Assembly: GCA_013204545.1 (NCBI GenBank)
Contig: JABMNN010000120.1
Location: 1-64,000, forward strand
Length of the DNA: 64,000 nt
Origin: Chloroflexota bacterium
GTDB lineage: Bacteria > Chloroflexota > Dehalococcoidia > Lucifugimonadales > Lucifugimonadaceae
Direction: 5' to 3'
Part shown: positions 37,192-37,864 of the stretch, piece after piece
How positions within the stretch are numbered: position 1 is the stretch's first letter
Layout of the letters: each line of letters begins with the position of its first letter
The notes under the pieces: model-generated
Database searches by the model: none
What the model was told of the DNA's origin: nothing
What the model saw: the letters and a program-made list of their open reading frames with translations, nothing else
Position numbers and translations under genes: made by a program

Positions 37192-37785
37192 CTAATTTGG
37201 TCGGCGAACGATTGCCGTGAGAGTGAGGGATATCAGCTTCAAATCTACCCAGAATGTACGTTCTTGAACGTATTTCATTCGCAGCTCCATTTTCCGATCC
37301 CAGACTTTGGCAAAGTAAAGCTTGTCCGGATCATCGCCTTCGAGAAGTGTTCCGAGATCTCTAAATTCGATAGACGCGTAGTCTGTAATTCCAGGGCGGA
37401 CATCCAGAATTACGTGCTGCTCAGGTGAGTAGTGCTTGATGTAATCGGGAGTTTCAGGGCGAGGTCCGACCAGACTCATCTCGCCTTTGACCACGTTCCA
37501 GAGCTGGGGAAGTTCGTCTATCTTGAACTTTCTCATCCACCTGCCGACTGTCGTGACACGCGGGTCATCGTCTCCGGAATGATGTGAAGTTGGTCCGTCG
37601 GCAATACGCATGCTTCTGAACTTCCGCACTATGAATGGTTTATTGAATCTACCAGCGCGTGTTGGTGAGTAGAGGATAGGGAGCCCTAATGTGATCAATA
37701 TCACGAATGCAGTCACCAACAGAATCGGAGAAAATATGATTAGGCCTATGATGCTCGCCATAAGATCAAATGTGCGTTTTGCCAA
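37192..37785 (-). CDS. Initiating sugar-1-phosphate transferase (monotopic phosphoglycosyl transferase)
   Basis: A 197-residue protein of the bacterial sugar transferase family (PglC/WcaJ catalytic core). One N-terminal re-entrant hydrophobic segment (about residues 8-34) is followed by KFRSM, then DELPQLWNVVKGEMSLVGPRP, the core of the active site (read as two adjoining blocks). These enzymes start a repeat unit by putting a sugar phosphate on undecaprenyl phosphate at the inner membrane face. At about 200 residues it is the short PglC/WbaP-core form. TTG at 37785 has AAGGAAGAG immediately upstream, a strong ribosome site. It is divergent from the epimerase gene at 37865, with a perfect palindrome between them. 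Confidence 0.92.
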   Translation of the reverse strand: MAKRTFDLMASIIGLIIFSPILLVTAFVILITLGLPILYSPTRAGRFNKPFIVRKFRSMRIADGPTSHHSGDDDPRVTTVGRWMRKFKIDELPQLWNVVKGEMSLVGPRPETPDYIKHYSPEQHVILDVRPGITDYASIEFRDLGTLLEGDDPDKLYFAKVWDRKMELRMKYVQERTFWVDLKLISLTLTAIVRRPN

Positions 37786-37801
37786 TCTCTTCCTTTCAAA
37801 T

Positions 37802-37848
37802 AGCTAAACTGATCTTGTCCGACCGATTCGGACAAGATCAGTTTAGCT
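37802..37848. promoter_or_regulatory. Perfect 21-bp-arm inverted repeat between divergent genes
   Basis: The left arm (37802-37822) begins AGCTAAACTGATC and ends GTCCGA. The right arm (37828-37848) is its exact reverse complement, and the spacer is CCGAT. It lies exactly 16 bases from each flanking start codon (37785 on the minus strand, 37865 on the plus strand). The whole divergent gap is only 79 bases, so any promoters must overlap this element or lie inside the genes. As RNA it would be a very stable hairpin in either leader. It could be an operator, attenuator or a mobile palindrome. It lacks a terminator U-run. Confidence 0.8.
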
Positions 37849-37864
37849 CCTCGATGGCCAATAC

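Follow-up and report, generated by a model that had tools for sequence, protein, structure and literature searches.

A single-copy perfect palindrome between divergent sugar-transferase and epimerase genes of a Chloroflexota genome, probably a recent product of replication template switching

The window analyzed here, that is, the whole 64-kb stretch of DNA, contains a divergent gene pair separated by a gap of 79 bp (positions 37786 to 37864). Domain scans and orthologue alignments identified a bacterial sugar transferase of 197 amino acids on the reverse strand (PF02397; 37192 to 37785) and an NAD-dependent epimerase/dehydratase of the SDR type, 306 amino acids long, on the forward strand (PF01370; 37865 to 38785). 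The TTG start of the sugar transferase at 37785 is preceded by the Shine-Dalgarno-like AAGGAAGAG; the epimerase starts with an ATG whose position is kept in congeners, and a Shine-Dalgarno sequence was not evident upstream of it. Both starts are credible because AAGGAAGAG precedes the TTG and the first residues of the orthologues align with both of them. The pair is flanked by O-antigen-ligase-type proteins and one Polysacc_synt_2 protein, so that the neighborhood looks, from its domains, like a polysaccharide-synthesis region, and no regulator gene was found among the neighboring proteins scanned for domains. The host genome, a 2.95-Mb draft in 134 contigs, is congeneric with Ca. Lucifugimonas marina JH1073, and we take the genus to be one of the marine SAR202-type Chloroflexota. 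In the sampled host contigs, TANNNT was enriched exactly 12 nt before ATG (20/512, against ~5 to 11 at adjacent positions), which suggests that a fraction of the transcripts may be leaderless.

Centered in the divergent gap is a 47-nt palindrome composed of a left arm of 21 bp (AGCTAAACTGATCTTGTCCGA; 37802 to 37822), a spacer of 5 nt (CCGAT; 37823 to 37827), and a right arm of 21 bp (TCGGACAAGATCAGTTTAGCT; 37828 to 37848) that is the exact reverse complement of the left arm. Flanks of 16 nt each separate the left arm from the sugar-transferase start (37786 to 37801) and the right arm from the epimerase start (37849 to 37864), and an identical TTTAGCT faces both starts at equal distance. Direct reading and two scans, in which the arms were 100% complementary, confirmed every element of this geometry as described in the initial annotation. 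The accompanying remark that no normal promoter space is left is overstated, because 23 of the 210 divergent gaps sampled in the host (~11%) are 79 bp or shorter and the orthologous gaps are just 89 to 94 bp long. The runner-up perfect inverted repeat in the window, with loops of up to 15 allowed, has a stem of only 10 bp, and by our own estimate a random 21-bp match is expected at ~1e-5 or less per genome. The palindrome cannot be a product of chance. Moreover, the RNA of either strand is predicted to fold at −36 to −42 kcal/mol, with z-scores of −9.0 and −9.4 for the two strands, values equaled by none of 200 shuffles.

The divergent pair and its start positions are conserved at six congeneric loci among the matches listed (G013, G007, G009, G006, and two in G014), which were found by protein search of genome contigs; the G006 contig ends inside the sugar transferase, of which the first residues are visible. 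No long inverted repeat was present in any of the six orthologous gaps, where the longest perfect stems are 4 to 6 bp, and thus the conserved arm pairing that the initial annotation had considered worth seeking was not found there. Excess fold structure on both strands of five orthologous gaps likewise gave no consistent signal, the sole exception being one strand of L043 (z of about −2). Reverse-strand self-matches of the palindrome were absent from the relatives and occurred in its own genome only, while the same type of match recovered, as a positive control, a tsf-pyrH hairpin in six congeners (judged from match positions). This near-perfect hairpin, located between tsf-like and pyrH-like genes (L137:5108-5147 of G000:C87) and kept in at least six congeners, is itself a candidate for a conserved structured RNA or a processing/attenuation signal.

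The search for further copies suggested in the initial annotation showed the palindrome to be single copy. No second palindromic copy was detected in the host genome with up to two mismatches in the arm core, and none in 75 other genomes of the family. Apart from the gap itself and its reverse strand, BLAST of the gap against the host genome returned only two short matches at chance level. Plasmid BLAST matched nothing but conserved sugar-transferase coding sequence, and the exact matches in a viral pattern scan, eight in all, were to a 16-mer only. The initial annotation had associated absence from relatives combined with a lack of genomic copies with chance or an assembly fold-back, and both absences were indeed found, in the six congeneric gaps and in the host genome. 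Of the two alternatives that it offered for the arms, newness or selection, newness is borne out by the same two absences.

A census of inverted repeats was conducted on 1.87 Mb of host genome stretches (including ~100-bp overlaps between neighboring pieces), with genes called as simple longest open reading frames rather than by a trained gene finder. Eleven inverted repeats with a stem score of at least 20 were recovered, six of them in convergent gaps. Convergent gaps are the expected place for bidirectional terminators, and among those of 30 to 400 bp, 27 of 157 had a perfect stem of at least 10 bp; among divergent gaps in this size range, 1 of 165 did. That single divergent case is the 21-bp palindrome of the window, the runner-up divergent gap having a stem of 9 bp; therefore, the palindrome is not one member of a larger set of long, symmetric operators in divergent gaps. 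Perfect stems of 20 to 24 bp recur in convergent gaps (L109:11780, L113:12843, L128:18153, L170:4963, L098:3622, and L118:8384) and appear long for bidirectional terminators. Like the palindrome, these terminator-like hairpins are perfect and have short loops, but they lie in convergent gaps and are often flanked by A/T runs, whereas the palindrome lies in a divergent gap and has no T run. An intrinsic terminator was accordingly rejected for the palindrome on the basis of a terminator scan, which found no T run, and of its location between two 5' ends. In addition, a 24-bp perfect palindrome of nonterminator type lies between tandem genes at L062:5257-5309 (G000:C88) and is absent from seven congeneric gaps, in which the longest stems are 3 to 9 bp; as a second lineage-limited palindrome, it points to a recurrent process. 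An enolase-superfamily-like gene (called by eye) bears, around its start, a stretch of ~65 to 70 nt (L062:5351-5425 of G000:C88 and L059:14114-14175); this stretch has matches of 76 to 90% at many places in congeneric genomes and is perhaps a dispersed conserved leader.

Several explanations for the palindrome were weighed. A bidirectional operator, at which a dimeric or tetrameric regulator would bind and control both divergent genes jointly, is suggested by the symmetric placement between two starts, by the polysaccharide-synthesis type of both products, and by the status of the palindrome as the sole long one among 165 divergent gaps. However, half-site or gapped palindromic relatives were not above permuted-control rates in 1.87 Mb of genome, the six orthologous gaps lack the palindrome, the neighboring proteins scanned include no regulator, and a perfect half-site of 21 bp exceeds the length that usual operators need. 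The operator proposed in the initial annotation has therefore gained no support from half-sites or conserved pairing, and we consider it unlikely. Its suggestion of mirrored leader hairpins fared no better, since pairing is not conserved in the orthologous gaps. Under that reading, each arm would serve as promoter or leader for one gene and the hairpin would gate expression or translation, in line with the TTTAGCT at equal distance before each start and with the strong predicted fold of either strand. Against it, a promoter scan found no sigma-70-type promoter in the gap, each transcript would have to begin within the opposite gene, or within the 16-nt flank of that gene, to carry a full hairpin leader, and the orthologous gaps hold no comparable structure. 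Neither of the signs of a structured cis-regulatory RNA was seen: an Rfam scan yielded only matches far below gathering scores, and the orthologues gave no consistent fold signal. We regard mirrored promoters or leaders as quite unlikely; an operator or hairpin-leader role is possible but unsupported.

An inserted palindromic mobile element, such as a REP, a MITE, or an insertion-sequence end, would account for the length and perfection of the inverted repeat and for its short loop. Such an element is improbable, however, considering that it has no second copy in the host or the 75 family genomes, shares no sequence with the other sampled host palindromes with stems of at least 15, and shows no target duplication in its flanks. 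Moreover, the gap is 79 bp long, compared with 89 to 94 bp in the orthologues, and therefore sequence was replaced with no gain in length; the simple insertion envisaged in the initial annotation, which would amount to 47 bp, does not fit. An integron attC site was also rejected; attC sites carry R boxes and extrahelical bases, while the ends of the palindrome only loosely resemble R boxes and its hairpin is perfect, with no extrahelical bases. The draft state of the genome, with its 134 contigs, leaves some room for an assembly or amplification artefact, yet the palindrome is located 37.8 kb inside a 138-kb contig and both of its flanks are intact genes. Since the genes on either side stand in an order conserved across the genus and the mirror symmetry stops within the gap, a fold-back during assembly is unlikely, and we regard an artefact as very improbable.

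The palindrome is real, single copy, and not found at the corresponding position in relatives; therefore, it is most likely a recent copying error and not a conserved regulatory device. We propose, at a probability of roughly 55%, that it is a lineage-specific product of replication template switching (a quasipalindrome event) that took place after the split from the sampled congeners. The palindrome agrees with such an origin in being a perfect inverted repeat with a short spacer that is confined to one lineage, the orthologous sites having none. In this scenario, the short divergent gap probably held a weak quasipalindrome beforehand; during replication, the nascent strand would have turned back on itself and used its own arm as the template, and the other side would have been overwritten with the exact reverse complement, resulting in a perfect palindrome. 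The arms would still be undecayed because the event was later than the divergence from the other congeneric species sampled.

As for direction, the left arm may have been the template and the right arm the inverted copy. The left flank and arm are collinear with the gap of G014b (score 36, P = 0.002 against dinucleotide shuffles, or ~2% after correction for six relatives), and a score of 36 or more was reached by 6 of 1,454 real host gap sequences (~0.4%); the right arm had no match in any relative. At the corresponding position, the G014b gap contains an imperfect inverted repeat, AGCTAA...TTAGCT, which is a plausible precursor form. With a motif model built from the six relatives, the left arm was not significant (P = 0.27). 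The left-arm homology is modest and only suggestive of left-to-right copying. Five relatives share a TGCGTTAATC-like element on the sugar-transferase side, ~20 nt from the start (P of about 0.01); since the left arm has no significant match to it, we do not claim that a −10 element was retained. The closest relative's flanking DNA is only 77% identical, and for this reason neither the before-state nor the switch itself is observed. Under the template-switch model, the exactly equal 16-nt flanks and the placement in a divergent gap are unexplained coincidences. A hypothetical side effect of the switch is that the sequence before the sugar transferase would also face the epimerase, mirrored and at an equal distance from the start. 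An extension of the model, in which the sugar-transferase upstream sequence copied inverted onto the epimerase side would form a mirror-symmetric bidirectional promoter/operator co-regulating two surface-polysaccharide genes in one species, is decidedly unlikely.

Conversion of quasipalindromes to perfect palindromes by template-switch mutation has been seen experimentally in E. coli lacZ reporters (PMC7202029). The short spacer is common to those mutations and the palindrome, but the E. coli event was observed in experiments, whereas here the process is deduced from its product. Template switching has also been inferred to create hairpins, including microRNA and rRNA stems (PMC8794818), which resemble the palindrome as new, long, perfect stems present in one lineage and absent from relatives. 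Those hairpins belong to transcribed RNA genes set in dense phylogenies, whereas the palindrome is located in a bacterial intergenic gap and is compared with distant relatives only.

Taken together, the palindrome is real, restricted to one genome, and probably recent, and it is of a known mutational kind. If the template switch is true, a single step apparently gave rise to a long perfect palindrome within a regulatory gap of a bacterium; if the mirrored-promoter reading is true, one replication error could couple two genes. Neither reading alters the understanding of the sugar-transferase or epimerase families. A template-switch origin would also be a warning against taking perfect symmetry in a divergent gap as a sure sign of an operator.
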